Positions 5,492 to 32,533 of a DNA stretch of 64,000 nucleotides are shown here, piece by piece. The stretch is from positions 1 through 64,000 of the forward strand of contig NZ_JBGCCH010000005.1 in NCBI RefSeq assembly GCF_041261205.1, given 5' to 3'. Each line of letters starts with the position of its first letter. The first letter of the stretch is position 1. A program made the position numbers and the translations under genes. The DNA is from Catenulispora sp. MAP5-51 (lineage in GTDB: Bacteria > Actinomycetota > Actinomycetes > Streptomycetales > Catenulisporaceae). The notes under the pieces are model-generated. The model saw nothing but the letters and a program-made list of their open reading frames with translations. It was not told the DNA's origin and did no database searches.

Positions 5492-8233
5492 CTACACCAG
5501 CGTCGGCACATCCCCGTTCGCCGCCAGCTCCACCGTCACTCCGCCCAACCCGCGCAGCCACGGTTTGGCGATCGCGCTCAGCTCCTCGCGCGTGGGTGGC
5601 GTGCGGCCCAGGCCGATGGCGGTGCGGAGTTCGGTCGCTGTGGTGTGGAAGGGGCGGGGCCAGGCGTGGGTGGCGGTGGTGCCGGCTTCGTCGAGGGCTG
5701 ACAGGAGGCTGCGCAGGCGGCCTCGGACGCGTCCTTCGAGGACGTCGCGCTGCTCGATGTCGGGGGCGGTGAGGCTGATCACGGCCCAGCGGCGGTGGCG
5801 GCGGTGCATCGGGGGCGGTGCCAGCAGTGCGGGGAGCGGGTCGGGGTTCGCCGTCGCCGTCTCCCAGGCGTCGTAGAGCTCCTCGGTGATCAGGTCGCGC
5901 ATCGCGGGTGTCAGGTGCAGGGTCAGGTCGCGGATCGGGGCGGTGGGGGTCGGGATCGGGGTGCGCCAGGTGTGGGCGGCCCAGGTCTCGAAGAAGTCGG
6001 TGAGGTCGTGGCAGCGTGCCGCCATCAGCGCCCACGCCAGGCCGGGGAGTCCGCCGAGCGGGGCGGCGTCGAGGCCGCGGGCGTGCGCCCAGGCTTTGAC
6101 CTGCCGCACGTGCGGGCCCGGTCGCAGGGCGAGGAGCGCCTCGGCGTCGGAGACCGCGGACAGGGAGCTGGCGATCGTCTCGCCGAGCTCCATGCGCCGC
6201 GCCACAGCCTCGGCAGGCGGGATGTCGCCGGTCGGTGCCAGGACCAGGTCCGCGCTGAGGCCGGGGGCGACGATGCGCAGGCCGGGCACCCGCGCGGCGA
6301 CCAGCTGCCGCACCCGGTGCCCGTCGCCGAGTGCCTTGGCGACACGCCGTTCGAGCACGTCCACATCCGGCGTGCCCGGGACGGCCGCGACGAGATCGAC
6401 GTCCGCGCCGGCGAGGTGCGTGCCGGTGCGGCGGGAACCGGTCAGGTGGACGACCGCCTCGGGCAGGGCCTCGGTGATGCGGCTGGTCAGGGTCGCGGCC
6501 GGCCGGTCGAGATCGGGAGATCGCCGACCTGCCGAAGTACCCGGTGCGGCCGGATCGCCGGACTCGGCGTCCATCCAGCGAATCGCCCCGCTGCCCAGCT
6601 CGATGACCGCGCGCACCTCCATCGGCCCGTCACCGCGCCGCGAGAGCACCGCCAGCTCTCTGACCTCGGTTGCGATCGGCGCGATCTTCACCGGCGTCCG
6701 GCTCGGATCCGCGACCTTGCCGATCGTCAGGTGGGGCGTGAACGTCTCGCGGCTGCGGCAGGCCGGGAACGCTTCGACCAGCGCGGCATACAGCTTCTGC
6801 CACGCATCGCCGGTGGGATGCAGCCACAGGGTGCTGTCGCTGCGATGCGTGAAGTGCCGGACGTCGGCGAGCTCGGTCGCGAACGCGCCGACGGTGGCGG
6901 CGGCCTTGCCGAGCAAGGGGATCGCGGCATCGAACTCCGACTCGGAGACGAAGCCGAACAGCAGATTGACATGCGGGGGCCAACGCAGCACCTGGGGATC
7001 GAGCCGCTGCCGGACCTCCTGGATCCCGTCCCAGGATGAGACCGGCGGAATCCAGGCGACGGCGGTGCGAGCGGTCGGTGTCGTGTCCATCGCCGGCGTG
7101 TCAGCCGGGGCCGCGCCCGACATGCTCGTGGTCGCGACAGTGGGAGCAACCACCGCGGTGATCCCGTAGTGGTCCGAGACGAACAGCCCGTCGCCGCTCG
7201 GCACCTCGCCGACCAGCCGCGCGTCCGAAGCCGCGGCGCCCAGCAGCAGCACCCGGTCCAACCGCTTCGCCTGCCCGGTCAGCGACGACACCGCAGCCAG
7301 CGGATTCGCCACCGGATCGAACGTCGCGGTCTCGTCCGCCACCCCATGGACCTGCGTCCACGCGTCGGTCATGCCCAGGCGCGTGGCCGGAGCCTCGCTG
7401 TCGTCGTTGAAATCGCCGACCAGGACCACCGGCACCGCGTCGAGGTCCCGCAGCCCGTCGGCCAGCTGCCCGAGCTGCTGAGTGCGCAGCCCCGCGCCAT
7501 CGGTGGAGTGATCGCTGCTCAGATGCGTGTTCGCGACCACGACCGGGCCGGCGGCCGTCTCCACGACCACCGCCGTGACCGCCTTGTACCGGGCCAGCGC
7601 GTGCCACCCGGCCTCGATCACCGGCAGCCGGCTGAGTACCAGCACCCCGCTGTCCGCGACATCCGCCGAGCGCGGATCGCCGCCGAGCGTCCACTCCGCG
7701 CGCACCCAGTCCTCGGCCAGCAGCATCTTCACCAGCGCCGGCTCGGCCTCCTGCAACGCGATCACGTCCACATCGGCGTCGCGCAAGGCCGCGAGCAGCA
7801 TCGGACGGCGCTCGGCCGTGCGGATCAGGGCCCCGTCATAGCGGTCCCACAGCGTGTTCCATGTCAGGACACGCAGTTCGGCGCCGACTGTGGCGCCGGA
7901 TGAAGGGCCGGTCGCCGGCTGCCAGCGACCGTCCACGAATGCGTGCGGCGTCCGCGGCTCGAAGAACGGGGCCGCCAGCAGCCGCGTCCGTTGCGCCAGC
8001 CCTGCCCCGGAGGCGTCCAGGGCATCGACCCCCGAAGCCCGGTCCCACACCAGCTGGCCGTCGGCCTCGAAGAACACCACCCGATGCCACGGGATGTCCC
8101 CCTGCGGATCGAACGAGGGCAGCGGCACCCGCTTCGGCTCCCGCCCGCGCTGCTCCAGCCCCATCACGAACCGCGACGCGTCGAACCGCGCGTCCCACCG
8201 CACGCGGTGATAGATCTCCTGACTGGTACGCAT
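5492..8233 (-). CDS. Four-domain RNA-end-processing protein (MJ1316/DUF504, EEP phosphoesterase, 2H phosphoesterase, poly(A)/CCA-type nucleotidyltransferase)
   Basis: This 913-residue protein joins four domains. Residues 1-70 match the MJ1316 (DUF504) RNA cyclic-end-recognition domain (YHRVRWDARF, IPWHRV, VWDR). Residues 118-365 are an endonuclease/exonuclease/phosphatase domain: TWNT, ALQEAE, NTHLSSD, GDFNDD and SDHYG. Residues 395-545 look like a 2H (LigT-like) phosphoesterase with H421-V-N and H501-L-T. Residues 580-900 form a poly(A)-polymerase/CCA-type nucleotidyltransferase with GS at 599-600, D611-x-D613 and a third Asp near 662. Known biochemistry of these folds implies opening of 2',3'-cyclic phosphate, phosphate removal and nucleotide addition. 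It starts 6 nt after the ligase-kinase gene, so the two are translationally coupled. Confidence 0.85.
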   Translation of the reverse strand: MRTSQEIYHRVRWDARFDASRFVMGLEQRGREPKRVPLPSFDPQGDIPWHRVVFFEADGQLVWDRASGVDALDASGAGLAQRTRLLAAPFFEPRTPHAFVDGRWQPATGPSSGATVGAELRVLTWNTLWDRYDGALIRTAERRPMLLAALRDADVDVIALQEAEPALVKMLLAEDWVRAEWTLGGDPRSADVADSGVLVLSRLPVIEAGWHALARYKAVTAVVVETAAGPVVVANTHLSSDHSTDGAGLRTQQLGQLADGLRDLDAVPVVLVGDFNDDSEAPATRLGMTDAWTQVHGVADETATFDPVANPLAAVSSLTGQAKRLDRVLLLGAAASDARLVGEVPSGDGLFVSDHYGITAVVAPTVATTSMSGAAPADTPAMDTTPTARTAVAWIPPVSSWDGIQEVRQRLDPQVLRWPPHVNLLFGFVSESEFDAAIPLLGKAAATVGAFATELADVRHFTHRSDSTLWLHPTGDAWQKLYAALVEAFPACRSRETFTPHLTIGKVADPSRTPVKIAPIATEVRELAVLSRRGDGPMEVRAVIELGSGAIRWMDAESGDPAAPGTSAGRRSPDLDRPAATLTSRITEALPEAVVHLTGSRRTGTHLAGADVDLVAAVPGTPDVDVLERRVAKALGDGHRVRQLVAARVPGLRIVAPGLSADLVLAPTGDIPPAEAVARRMELGETIASSLSAVSDAEALLALRPGPHVRQVKAWAHARGLDAAPLGGLPGLAWALMAARCHDLTDFFETWAAHTWRTPIPTPTAPIRDLTLHLTPAMRDLITEELYDAWETATANPDPLPALLAPPPMHRRHRRWAVISLTAPDIEQRDVLEGRVRGRLRSLLSALDEAGTTATHAWPRPFHTTATELRTAIGLGRTPPTREELSAIAKPWLRGLGGVTVELAANGDVPTLV

Positions 8234-8239
8234 CGCCGT

Positions 8240-9967
8240 TCAGCCCTCCCAGATGGAGTACGCGAGAACGTCGTGGGCCGCATCGTCCCCGACCGTGTCG
8301 GCGTAGACCGTGCGATGCGCCTCGCCCGGATACGGCGGGTCGAAGCGGCGCAGCTGGGCCGCCAGCACCTTCGCGGGCACCGGATGCGCACGTTCCGCGT
8401 TCCGCTCCTGCACCACCGGCTCCGGAGCCAGATGCACCAGATGCTCGACCAGCGCATTGCGGCGCCGTGCGACGGCATCGACCAAGCCCCGTTGCTGCCG
8501 GGTCAGGGAGGTCGCGTCCCAGACCACGTCCGTTCCCCGCGCCAAAGCCTCGTCGAGCAGCCGGAAACCCTCGCTCAGCACTTCCTGGTTCGCCGACTGA
8601 TCCGTTCGTGATCCGCGCGCCGTGCGCAGGTCGTCGAGGCTGACCAGCTCTGTGCCGGCCGCTGTGTCGGCGCGTCCCGCGAGTGCTTTCGCCGTCGAGC
8701 TCTTACCGCTCCCGGACACGCCGACCATGTGCAGCAGCTTCGGGAACGCCCCGTCCCGCCAGCGCCACGTCGCCGCCGTCGCCTCCTCGGACGAGGCGAT
8801 GCGCCCCTCGGCGAACAGCTGACGCGCTTCGCCCCAGCAGCGGTCGGCCGCTCGCGGGGGAAGCTCGGCGAAGGCCTCGCGGCAGGCCAGCCGGAGCGTT
8901 CCGGGAAGCACCGCGAGATCATCGGCGAACAACACAGACCACGCGACGTTCTCCGCGGCAGCGGCATCCGGAGCGGTGGCGGCGGCGACGGCGTGGAGCA
9001 CCGCCAAGTCCGTGCCGAACGCCATGCGGACGAGCCCCGCGCGCCTGTACTCGTCGTCGATAGCCGTCTGCACACGAGGAGCGAGTCCGACGACGTCCGC
9101 GATCCGCCGCACGGTCGGCATCTCCAACGACGCCGCGAGGTCTGCCATAAGCGCGGCGCGCGGCCGGTGATGCAGAAGCGCGGCGACGGAGCCGACCAGG
9201 CGCGCGTTGCCGTAGCAGCCGGCGGCGTCAAGACGCACATAGGCGTCGGCCAAGAGATCGTCGTGCTTAGGCGGCTCTGTAGAGAGCGCAGTGGCCAGTT
9301 CCTCGGCGCCGACGTCCATACCGCTGCGCACGGTCCAGAACGGAGCCTTGGCCCCGAGCTTGTTGGGCACCACCTCGGCGTGCATCCAGTGCGTGTCGGT
9401 CTGCACATGAGACGGTCGGACCCACTTGGCGACTCGCTCCGCGAACTCCGTATAAGCGAATCCCTCTGCGGGACGCACTACGTAGCCCTCTTGGCGGGTC
9501 AGATCCAGTTTCAGCTGCTGCTGGATCAGCTTCTCGTCGAAGTCGCCGGCCCACAGGACGCGCGGCGTCGGAATCCCCAGTCCCTGAAGGAACGCCACCG
9601 TCGACATCCAGTCGAGACACTGGTCGCCGTCCCATACAGAGAACCCATAGAAGAACCCGTCCAGGTCCTCATAAGGGATCGAATGCTTGGCGAACAGGTT
9701 CTCGCCGGAGATCCGCCACCCTTCGGGGATCCGTGCGGCGATCCGGCTGTGCAGCGCCTTCACCCAGGCGCGCGACGGATGATGCGCGGAGTCCAAGGAA
9801 CGTGCGTGCAGTCCGTCCGCGTAGAGGGTGGTGTTCTCCCCGTCCATCTTCTCGGTGACGACGACGCGGCGGCCTGCGAGCCCTGACAGATCCCGGGCAC
9901 GCACGTCGTCTGCGGTGGCGCCGGGCGACCAGGGCAGATGAGGGGTGCGGGGATAGTGGACTCGCAT
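8240..9967 (-). CDS. RNA ligase-polynucleotide kinase fusion (RNA repair)
   Basis: A 575-residue protein. Residues 30-190 are a nucleotidyltransferase-type RNA ligase: motif I K40-M-D-G (adenylated lysine), FFYGFSV near 105, motif IV EGYVVR at 160 and motif V KWVR at 181. Residues 200-400 are an uncharacterised helical region. Residues 408-575 form a P-loop kinase with Walker A GVSGSGKSS (K422) and a following LDDLR motif, as in T4-type 5'-OH polynucleotide kinases. Together they could phosphorylate 5'-OH ends and seal RNA. The ATG at 9967 is chosen because it begins directly at the ligase fold; a longer reading to 10150 overlaps the acetyltransferase gene. It lies 32 nt after the GNAT gene and 6 nt before the end-processing gene. 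Confidence 0.85.
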   Translation of the reverse strand: MRVHYPRTPHLPWSPGATADDVRARDLSGLAGRRVVVTEKMDGENTTLYADGLHARSLDSAHHPSRAWVKALHSRIAARIPEGWRISGENLFAKHSIPYEDLDGFFYGFSVWDGDQCLDWMSTVAFLQGLGIPTPRVLWAGDFDEKLIQQQLKLDLTRQEGYVVRPAEGFAYTEFAERVAKWVRPSHVQTDTHWMHAEVVPNKLGAKAPFWTVRSGMDVGAEELATALSTEPPKHDDLLADAYVRLDAAGCYGNARLVGSVAALLHHRPRAALMADLAASLEMPTVRRIADVVGLAPRVQTAIDDEYRRAGLVRMAFGTDLAVLHAVAAATAPDAAAAENVAWSVLFADDLAVLPGTLRLACREAFAELPPRAADRCWGEARQLFAEGRIASSEEATAATWRWRDGAFPKLLHMVGVSGSGKSSTAKALAGRADTAAGTELVSLDDLRTARGSRTDQSANQEVLSEGFRLLDEALARGTDVVWDATSLTRQQRGLVDAVARRRNALVEHLVHLAPEPVVQERNAERAHPVPAKVLAAQLRRFDPPYPGEAHRTVYADTVGDDAAHDVLAYSIWEG

Positions 9968-9999
9968 TCCGCCACTGTAGGGACCGATCCCGTACGGCT

Positions 10000-10494
10000 C
10001 TACGGAATAACGACCCACACGTCCGTCGCCGTCCCGCCGGCCATCGGCGGTCGCACCTCCTCGTGCCAGGCGTCGCCGGCGACCTCCGAGGCCACGCGTC
10101 GCCAGAACTGCGCGCCCTCGACGTTGCGCTCCTGGAACGCGATCTCCCACGGGCCCGGATGCGCGGCCAGCACCTGCTTGACGAACTGCGTCCCGTATCC
10201 GCTACGTCGGGCGCCCCGCACGATGAAGAAGCTGTTGAGCACGCGCGCGGGCTGCTCCAAGGCTCGGACGAAGGCGAAACCCGCGGGACGGTCTCCGACG
10301 AGTGCCAGGTACGCGGCCCAGTTCTCGTCCTCCAACGCCGAATGCAGCCTCTCGGTCCGGAACGAGCCGTCGGGGTTGGGCAGCTGCTCGGCGAACTCCG
10401 ACATGTCGTGGCGGAACATCAGCCACATGCGCTCCAGCGCCGCGCGGTCGACGGGATCGGCGGAGTCGGCGCGGCGTACCAGCAGTTCAGGCAT
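10000..10494 (-). CDS. GNAT family N-acetyltransferase, first gene of the RNA-repair operon
   Basis: A 164-residue single-domain GNAT. The acetyl-CoA loop appears as RGARRSGYGTQFVKQV around residue 95, preceded by the beta strand VLNSFFIV and followed by WEIAFQERNVEGAQFW. The substrate is unknown; GNATs that modify aminoacyl-tRNA exist, and the RNA-repair neighbours make an RNA-linked role conceivable, but nothing in the sequence proves it. The start has GGGAG 6 nt upstream of ATG. A terminator-like hairpin lies 38 nt upstream of the start codon in the leader, so the whole operon is probably under attenuation control. Confidence 0.8.
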   Translation of the reverse strand: MPELLVRRADSADPVDRAALERMWLMFRHDMSEFAEQLPNPDGSFRTERLHSALEDENWAAYLALVGDRPAGFAFVRALEQPARVLNSFFIVRGARRSGYGTQFVKQVLAAHPGPWEIAFQERNVEGAQFWRRVASEVAGDAWHEEVRPPMAGGTATDVWVVIP

Positions 10495-10500
10495 GGGAAT

Positions 10501-10553
10501 CTCCCGGAAAGGGTGTCAGGGAACAGAAAAAGCCTCCCGGAGAACCGGGAGGC
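10501..10553 (-). promoter_or_regulatory. Candidate attenuator in the leader of the GNAT/RNA-repair operon
   Basis: On the minus strand a 9-bp stem (10545-10553 with 10532-10540, loop 4 nt) is followed at once by TTTTT, an intrinsic terminator, yet no minus-strand gene ends here. A second copy of the 3' arm, CCGGGAG at 10501-10507, overlaps the Shine-Dalgarno. The 5' arm could therefore pair either with the terminator arm or with the ribosome-binding site. Confidence 0.65.
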
Positions 10554-10691
10554 CCGCAGATGCGAGGACAGTCTATCGTCCTGCGGCGGTAATGGTCTTT
10601 CCGGGGCGTGGGGCATGACGGTACGGTCTGGCTGTCAAGGCGTTGGCGAGATTGCGGCTGGGAAGATACCTTCGCCGCTGGGGAGGGTGTT

Positions 10692-32409: not shown

Positions 32410-32482
32410 GCGGATGTGGCTCAGCTGGTAGAGCATCACCTTGCCAAGGTGAGGGTCGCGAGTTCGAATCTCGTCATCCGCT
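32410..32482 (+). tRNA. tRNA-Gly (GCC anticodon)
   Basis: The 73-nt sequence folds as a full cloverleaf: acceptor GCGGATG/CATCCGC, D arm GCTC-AGCTGGTA-GAGC, anticodon stem TCACC/GGTGA with loop TTGCCAA, variable region 5 nt, T arm GCGAG-TTCGAAT-CTCGT. CCA is not encoded. It lies between the CorC-like gene and the cytidine-deaminase-like gene and is read with them. Confidence 0.97.
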
Positions 32483-32533
32483 CAGCGAGAAGGCCCCGAA
32501 GGTTCCAGACCTCCGGGGTCTTCGGCGTTTCGA

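Follow-up and report, generated by a model that had tools for sequence, protein, structure and literature searches.

A predicted two-gene RNA end-healing and sealing system with a degenerate HD domain in Catenulispora sp. MAP5-51

Where does a bacterial RNA ligase-kinase obtain healed 3' ends if its own 3' phosphoesterase domain has decayed, and which of the neighbouring genes belong with it? The question is raised by a locus in the first 64,000 nucleotides of contig 5 (NZ_JBGCCH010000005.1) of the 10.9 Mb genome of Catenulispora sp. MAP5-51, a stretch called here the window. Three genes, all on the minus strand, lie there in a row, coding for a GNAT acetyltransferase (P0003), a fusion of an RNA ligase with a P-loop kinase (P0001), and a protein with MJ1316/DUF504, EEP, 2H, and nucleotidyltransferase domains (P0002); the gaps between them are 32 nt (9999-9968) and 6 nt (8239-8234). 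A preliminary description, made from the DNA letters, presented them as a three-gene RNA-repair operon. Its genes, gaps, coordinates, and named residues are all correct, and the pairing of the ligase-kinase with P0002 is conserved, while the membership of the GNAT is not borne out: the conserved unit consists of two genes, not three. It is fairly probable that these two genes form an RNA end-healing and sealing system in which the HD domain of P0001 is dead, 3' healing is performed by P0002, the pair has its own promoter, and the GNAT is a passenger.

The ligase and the kinase of P0001 are recognised both by profile and by catalytic residues. The ligase core matches PF09414 and has the motif I lysine (KxDG), and the kinase has the Walker A and DxxR motifs, as found in pairs of an Rnl ligase with an HD-Pnk. 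K40, E160, K181, K422 (in GxSGSGKS), D445, and R448 are invariant in all 24 aligned fused proteins, the one from the window included (L028, with a broken frame, and the contig-cut L030 and L033 are omitted), which upholds the earlier identification of K40 as part of motif I and of K422 as the Walker A lysine. The Pfam matches and residue invariance of the ligase-kinase, like those of P0002 described below, are far beyond chance. Compared with the PDB as a single sequence, the ligase core gave no match.

Between ligase and kinase lies a segment of about 200 residues that the preliminary description had missed. Its origin is suggested by 54 split loci outside actinobacteria, where the same ligase has a gene to itself, usually some 210 codons long, followed in 51 of them (all except L059, L062, and L063) by a frame of about 390-600 codons for an HD-kinase, with Pfam HD matches of E 2.9e-9 and 3e-5 in the two that were scanned. 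The profile of the middle segment was aligned by hhalign with the HD part of these 51 HD-kinases at a probability of 98.5 and E 1.9e-15 over 207 columns, as against E 0.12-0.87 for ten column shuffles and 0.36 for the reversed alignment; the HD core without the kinase-side linker gave E 1.8e-6 (0.058-0.43 in five shuffles). These values argue for HD ancestry of the segment before the kinase, and its AlphaFold model is entirely helical (pLDDT 84.7).

Seven histidine or aspartate residues are invariant in all 51 HD-kinases (H49, H57, H91, D92, H115, H147, and D182 in L079 numbering), and from what is known of the HD family we take them to be metal ligands. Two of the seven lack an equivalent in P0001, and each of the other five is replaced in at least some of the 24 fused proteins: one is lysine in P0001 and histidine in no fused protein, the last is an aspartate in none of the 24, and of the five mapped residues P0001 itself retains only H266. 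The HD segment of P0001 is, to judge from these alignments, degenerate, with its metal site lost.

The order of events is suggested by a ligase tree of 157 rows (24 fused, 55 split, and 78 viral, with a midpoint root only and L033 entered as split), built from the best 80 of 255 genome loci and from 80 of 138 viral loci that were read. The 24 fused ligases and the contig-cut L033 form one long-branched clade with 100/100 support, nested among the split-locus ligases in a group that totals 81 rows (support 96/77, not starred); this group includes two viral rows, the other 76 of the 78 being outside it. Because of this placement, the fusion of the ligase with the kinase and the loss of the HD site look derived. 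Since the separate HD-kinases beside the same ligase keep an intact HD site, 3'-end healing was probably taken over in the fused loci by the MJ1316-EEP-(2H)-polymerase protein.

All four domains assigned earlier to P0002 are present, in the order MJ1316-EEP-2H-nucleotidyltransferase, with Pfam matches and conserved catalytic residues. They were compared in an alignment of 22 proteins, the one from the window included, which omits both pieces of L028 (broken frame), the unlinked Actinospica copy, and Myxococcota-type copies; the counts for the EEP and polymerase domains refer to these 22 rows only. The MJ1316 domain of P0002 is the sole match of its kind in the source genome, and its profile gave no match in the PDB. 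Domains of this family are said to recognise 2',3'-cyclic RNA ends and to be fused to repair domains in lineages across the eukaryotes (PMC6514570). In the EEP domain, N126, E162, D274, N276, D354, and H355 are each retained in at least 21 of the 22 proteins. ANGEL2, a protein of the EEP fold, converts a 2',3'-cyclic phosphate via a 2'-phosphate into 2',3'-OH (PMC13247085), so the EEP domain by itself is, by analogy, a plausible 3'-end healer.

An EEP domain able to heal alone would explain why the 2H domain is dispensable. Both 2H histidines, H421 and H501, are found in all 15 proteins that have the domain, and the second motif is HLT or HLS in 14 of them; the remaining seven proteins, all from Streptomyces, lack the domain. 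Since their seven loci form one 100/100 clade in the ligase tree, the simplest reading of the sequences is a single loss of 2H, in one Streptomyces clade. Among the matches listed (to about E 9e-18), an operonic 2H match was missing for 10 of 61 sampled genomes, one of which (G633) has a broken frame. A second MJ1316-2H gene occurs in 3 of these 10 and in 2 of the 51 with an operonic match (Fisher p 0.028, uncorrected for kinship and with G633 counted), which makes a weak case for compensation of the 2H loss. Small MJ1316-2H proteins are also encoded away from the ligase in Streptomycetaceae genomes; the two that were scanned have 287 and 318 aa (L179 2990-3853 and L180 2551-3507).

The last third of P0002 is predicted to fold like a eukaryotic poly(A) polymerase (PAP) of the canonical type, with all its domains. 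Pfam finds here an NTP_transf_2 match of E 2.6e-4; the profile of the last 339 residues matched human PAP gamma in the PDB with E 6.9e-33 over positions 15-318 of 365. The structural model (pLDDT 88) was superimposed on yeast PAP with Z 27.7 over 335 residues at 2.9 Å, the best chain other than a canonical PAP reaching Z 15.9, and it has palm, central, and RNA-binding domains together with the catalytic aspartate triad. G599, S600, D611, D613, and D662 are invariant in all 22 proteins. For other RNA-repair systems, nucleotidyltransferases that restore lost bases before ligation (RlaP) have been proposed (PMC7824862), and by analogy we infer that the PAP-type enzyme restores lost nucleotides in this system.

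The association of the two genes was followed across the order. A ligase-kinase match or its remnant was found in 64 of 391 sampled genomes, chosen at E <=4.8e-11 among the matches listed in order of E from 347 matching genomes, with weaker kinase-only matches excluded. In 61 of the 64 it is followed directly, on the same strand, by an MJ1316 match (the count includes G457, where the match is truncated at the end of the contig, and G633, where the frame is interrupted). The 59 genomes with an intact ligase-kinase all have an MJ1316 match, adjacent in 58 of them, which confirms the conservation of the gene pair; in all adjacent cases the distance between the two matches is 10-221 nt. In the named loci L006-L029, P0002 adjoins the fused gene in 22 of 24, the contig ending in L008 and the two genes being unlinked in L017. 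The closest named relatives at the locus are Catenulispora species, with ligase-kinases 80-82% identical. Ligase-kinase remnants in decay are seen in G485, G753, G767, G774, and G793, and an MJ1316 match is still adjacent in the first three; 32 of the 93 MJ1316 matches in the 391 genomes are not beside a ligase, most of them in short frames. No P0002 match was found in the DNA read from the 54 split loci, and the genomes of 49 of them, searched for MJ1316 together with that of L017, gave a match in three. In two of these three, which were scanned, MJ1316, EEP, 2H, and PAP matches (the last weak in one) are unlinked to the ligase. Because three of the 49 have both, replacement of HD by an MJ1316 protein is a strong tendency and no strict exclusion.

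The pair is preceded by a conserved promoter-like element, composed of a box like TTATTCSRTNGA, 19-20 variable bases, and TACAGT. The -10-like hexamer is present in 28 of 29 loci compared, with or without a GNAT gene, and is exactly TACAGT in 24 of the 28. The box, located at -31 or -32 in the 18 Streptomycetaceae loci, agrees with its consensus at 6-11 of 11 positions (8.7 on average, with 14 of the 18 reaching 8 or more), and equal windows elsewhere in the same upstream DNA give a background mean of 4.7 with at least 8 matches in 3 of 306; these scores are due partly to selection, the -10 anchor having been chosen by pattern and the box consensus written after viewing both groups, and the box of L021 (6 of 11) is not above background. 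Each of the 10 genomes of the genus has a single copy of the strict pattern of the element, in every case immediately ahead of the ligase, and four other genomes of the family have none; written backwards, the pattern matched once in the 14 genomes. In Catenulispora 6 nt separate the end of the hexamer from the ligase ATG, a distance that fits a leaderless message. The element overlaps the GNAT 3' end in GNAT-bearing genomes and is retained in three loci without GNAT. Because it is conserved before the ligase with or without GNAT, the ligase-kinase/P0002 pair has a promoter-like element of its own.

The architecture, the pairing, HD ancestry and decay, the PAP fold, and conservation of the promoter-like element are strongly supported; the reactions, their order, the RNA substrate, the new role of HD, any part in biological conflicts, and the regulation of the pair are inferred. 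The MJ1316 domain of P0002 would dock on RNA ends carrying a 2',3'-cyclic phosphate or a phosphate, and the EEP domain, helped by 2H where present, would convert the end to a free 3'-OH. The PAP-like part would then put back lost nucleotides, the P0001 kinase would phosphorylate the 5'-OH, and the ligase would seal. The HD domain would descend from an active 3' phosphoesterase and now serve to link the neighbouring domains or to bind RNA; the promoter-like element would drive the pair, with the upstream GNAT as a passenger.

Several observations pull the other way. The HD site has not decayed evenly: in 19 of the 24 fused proteins the HD dyad still begins with histidine, in 4 its second residue is aspartate, and in 6 one further site histidine is retained. 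A Foldseek search of the HD model against the PDB found no match at E <=0.001. In structural comparison (VIA) small HD hydrolases are among the best matches (YpgQ Z 6.8, RelH 5.8) and CCA-adding enzymes mostly score 4-8.4, with the top score, Z 12.1 for the tRNA processing enzyme 3wfp, lying in the tool's possible-by-chance range for unrelated helical bundles. The first 2H motif is HxN rather than HxT/S (HVN or HIN in all 15 proteins with the domain). The nearest solved relatives of the EEP profile are chains of TDP2 (E 2.3e-6), not ANGEL2, and at E 0.001 the only solved matches are TDP2 and beta-hemolysin; thus, the sequence gives no support to an ANGEL2-like EEP. The fused gene of Actinospica (L017) is without the promoter element and has its MJ1316 match on another contig, and the three split-locus genomes with an MJ1316 match (L048, L057, and L077) have an HD-kinase locus with an intact site.

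A bolder version of the same two-gene system is a gap-filling machine, in which the dead HD domain would hold the RNA, P0002 would recognise damaged 3' ends, its EEP domain clean them and its eukaryote-type PAP rebuild them, and sealing would follow, all under a pathway-specific promoter. It is tentative, possible but on balance doubtful; were it true, eukaryotic poly(A) polymerase would have a repair-related ancestry in common with the polymerase of bacterial repair.

The next question is what the system would serve. The substrate proposed in the preliminary description, tRNA cleaved by a toxin or by a phage-triggered nuclease, is a putative one. It may act in housekeeping, in the maturation of rRNA, tRNA, or mRNA ends or under stress, e.g., after antibiotics, instead of countering toxins or phages; this is compatible with the two-gene healing and sealing system and is rather unlikely. 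The surroundings, with core genes of which many act in translation, favour it. In Catenulispora the pair is flanked by hemW, a short-chain dehydrogenase/reductase (SDR) gene, and a transporter-like gene on one side and by a PhzF-like gene and lepA on the other (names from NCBIfam, with the transporter assigned to MFS by eye, no family matching at 1e-10, and PhzF below the cut-off); hemW is nearby in all seven of the window and loci L006-L011, and lepA in six, the contig ending in the other. Of 19 Streptomycetaceae loci, 11 have genes for EF-Tu/EF-G or S10/L3/L4 within the flanking DNA retrieved. PADLOC assigned none of the three proteins to a defence family at E 0.01, so a match to a known defence system was dropped, and two stretches of viral contigs that matched a P0002 pattern (six peptide patterns were used) were not confirmed. 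Against housekeeping speak the patchy distribution, with the ligase-kinase in the above-mentioned minority of the order and a P0002 match in 3 of 396 sampled genomes of the phylum, its own included, the decay of some ligase-kinase copies, and the abundance of the ligase core in viral contigs (138 confirmed stretches), as would be expected of conflict genes. The 80 viral ligase loci read contained no P0002 match, one HD-only match, and five HD-kinase matches; their ligase-core frames (L091-L170) are mostly of about 200-270 codons, otherwise 324-371. In L182 (1926-10357) a truncated ligase-kinase gene immediately follows that for EF-Tu, and the S10, L3, and L4 genes come further downstream; this part of the ribosomal gene cluster apparently admits insertions.

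Editing of 3' tails is an improbable function. The EEP domain would then be a CCR4-like trimming nuclease and the nucleotidyltransferase a true PAP, the two setting tail length, with the ligase given a side task. The full canonical PAP fold, of the kind that makes the poly(A) tails in human cells, is in line with it. Deadenylases of the EEP fold are known as well (PMC13247085), but the EEP profile is nearest to TDP2, not CCR4, and MJ1316, 2H, and the constant pairing with a ligase and a 5'-OH kinase are left unexplained.

A unit of three genes, whose GNAT would work with the repair enzymes, e.g., with a toxin product, a tRNA, or a repair protein as the substrate that it acetylates, is very improbable. 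The GNAT gene does lie upstream of the ligase at near-constant spacing in 7 of 10 Catenulispora genomes, and a GNAT is also encoded inside the Hen1-Pnkp-ligase cluster of the same genome. However, the GNAT is missing beside the ligase in the other three genomes of the genus, where the promoter-like element and the ligase stay, and no GNAT match was found in the DNA read from 19 Streptomycetaceae loci. In L008, one of the loci without GNAT, the ligase is still preceded by about 40 nt from the 3' end of the GNAT, which indicates a deletion. In two genomes of the same family the GNAT is unlinked, and one of them (G455) has no intact ligase-kinase. The GNAT was rejected as a conserved partner also because the ligase has its own promoter-like element; it is a lineage-specific, genus-level neighbour and not an operon member. 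Its Acetyltransf_1 Pfam match is barely above the cut-off (E 3.2e-4). A terminator-like hairpin with a T-run (10530-10555, minus strand) is separated by 35 nt from the start of the GNAT that follows and is itself preceded by a -10-like box, TAGACT; a similar hairpin, detected by eye, precedes the GNAT in L009, L010, L011, L186, L187, and L188, a candidate GNAT attenuator.

That the targets are DNA or protein-blocked ends rather than RNA, with the EEP domain acting as TDP2, its closest solved relative, is hardly credible, as the RNA_ligase family, 2H, MJ1316, and PAP parts all indicate RNA.

The features of the locus are collected in Table 1. P0001 is counted there from its ATG, and a longer frame from a GTG is also present. 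Apart from a tRNA-Gly (GCC) at 32410-32483, no RNA gene was found in the window.

Table 1. Features of the ligase-kinase/P0002 locus and of its GNAT neighbour (positions in the window)
Feature	Position	Strand	Basis or remark
GNAT acetyltransferase P0003, 164 aa	10494-10000	(-)	ORF and weak Pfam match
Conserved promoter-like element TTATTCCGTAGA-N19-TACAGT before ligase	9974-10010	(-)	overlaps GNAT 3' end
Ligase/degenerate HD/5'-OH kinase fusion P0001, 575 aa	9967-8240	(-)	counted from ATG
ATP-dependent RNA ligase core, residues 1-205	9353-9967	(-)	PF09414 RNA_ligase, E 6.7e-33; K40 in KxDGEN (KMDGEN)
Degenerate HD domain, residues ~213-400 of P0001	8768-9331	(-)	hhalign vs HD-kinases; metal-site residues mostly lost; AlphaFold
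P-loop polynucleotide-kinase domain, residues 405-575	8243-8755	(-)	PF13671 AAA_33, E 3.5e-27; Walker A K422, DxxR D445/R448
MJ1316-EEP-2H-poly(A)-polymerase-like protein P0002, 913 aa	8233-5492	(-)	Pfam and 22-row alignment including window
MJ1316 (DUF504) domain, residues 1-65	8039-8233	(-)	PF04457, E 2e-18
EEP phosphoesterase domain, residues 123-355	7169-7867	(-)	PF03372 Exo_endo_phos, E 1.8e-11
2H phosphoesterase domain, residues 396-535	6629-7048	(-)	PF13563 2_5_RNA_ligase2, E 4.5e-27
Canonical poly(A)-polymerase-like part (palm, central, RNA-binding), residues 575-913	5495-6511	(-)	PDB profile match and predicted fold

The two-gene system can be set beside four known groups. Like P0002, human PAP gamma and yeast Pap1 have palm, central, and RNA-binding domains and the GS...DxD...D motif; P0002 differs from the eukaryotic canonical PAPs in being bacterial, about 20% identical in the structural alignment, and fused behind MJ1316-EEP-2H, and it offers a bacterial setting for a eukaryote-type PAP fold in RNA repair. 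The Hen1-Pnkp-Rnl cassette comprises a kinase, a phosphatase, and a ligase for RNA repair. One is present in the same genome at a separate locus (C22 28000-44000; L183 3103-13019), and it has another ligase, a calcineurin-like phosphatase, and the Hen1 methyltransferase; the genes of this second cluster, all on one strand, are for Tpt1/KptA, Hen1, Pnkp, DUF899, GNAT, an OB-fold RNA ligase, a T4 Rnl1-like ligase, and a kinase-HAD PNKP. In pairs of an RNA ligase with an HD-Pnk, the ligase is homologous over its whole core, as are the kinase and the HD region; the HD-Pnk of Runella is reportedly an HD 2',3'-phosphoesterase/5'-OH kinase (Munir and Shuman 2017). Unlike them, P0001 is one fused chain with the HD site lost and an MJ1316 gene adjacent, which suggests a pattern of part-swapping in RNA repair, with a dead domain in one protein and its replacement encoded in the adjacent gene.

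Among the titles and abstracts listed in a literature search, none dealt with a degenerate HD domain or with this operon, the work of Burroughs and Aravind (2016) being outside the scope of that search. These authors reportedly predicted, by comparative genomics, RNA-repair proteins of the MJ1316-EEP-2H-nucleotidyltransferase type with ligase-kinase partners, and the domain set and the ligase partnership are the same here. The best reading of the sequences is that the locus is a variant of these predicted systems, to which the present analysis adds the HD ancestry and decay, the full PAP fold, the loss of 2H, the promoter-like element, and the exclusion of the GNAT. The unit redefined in this way, as two genes with their own promoter-like element, guides what to express and what to omit.

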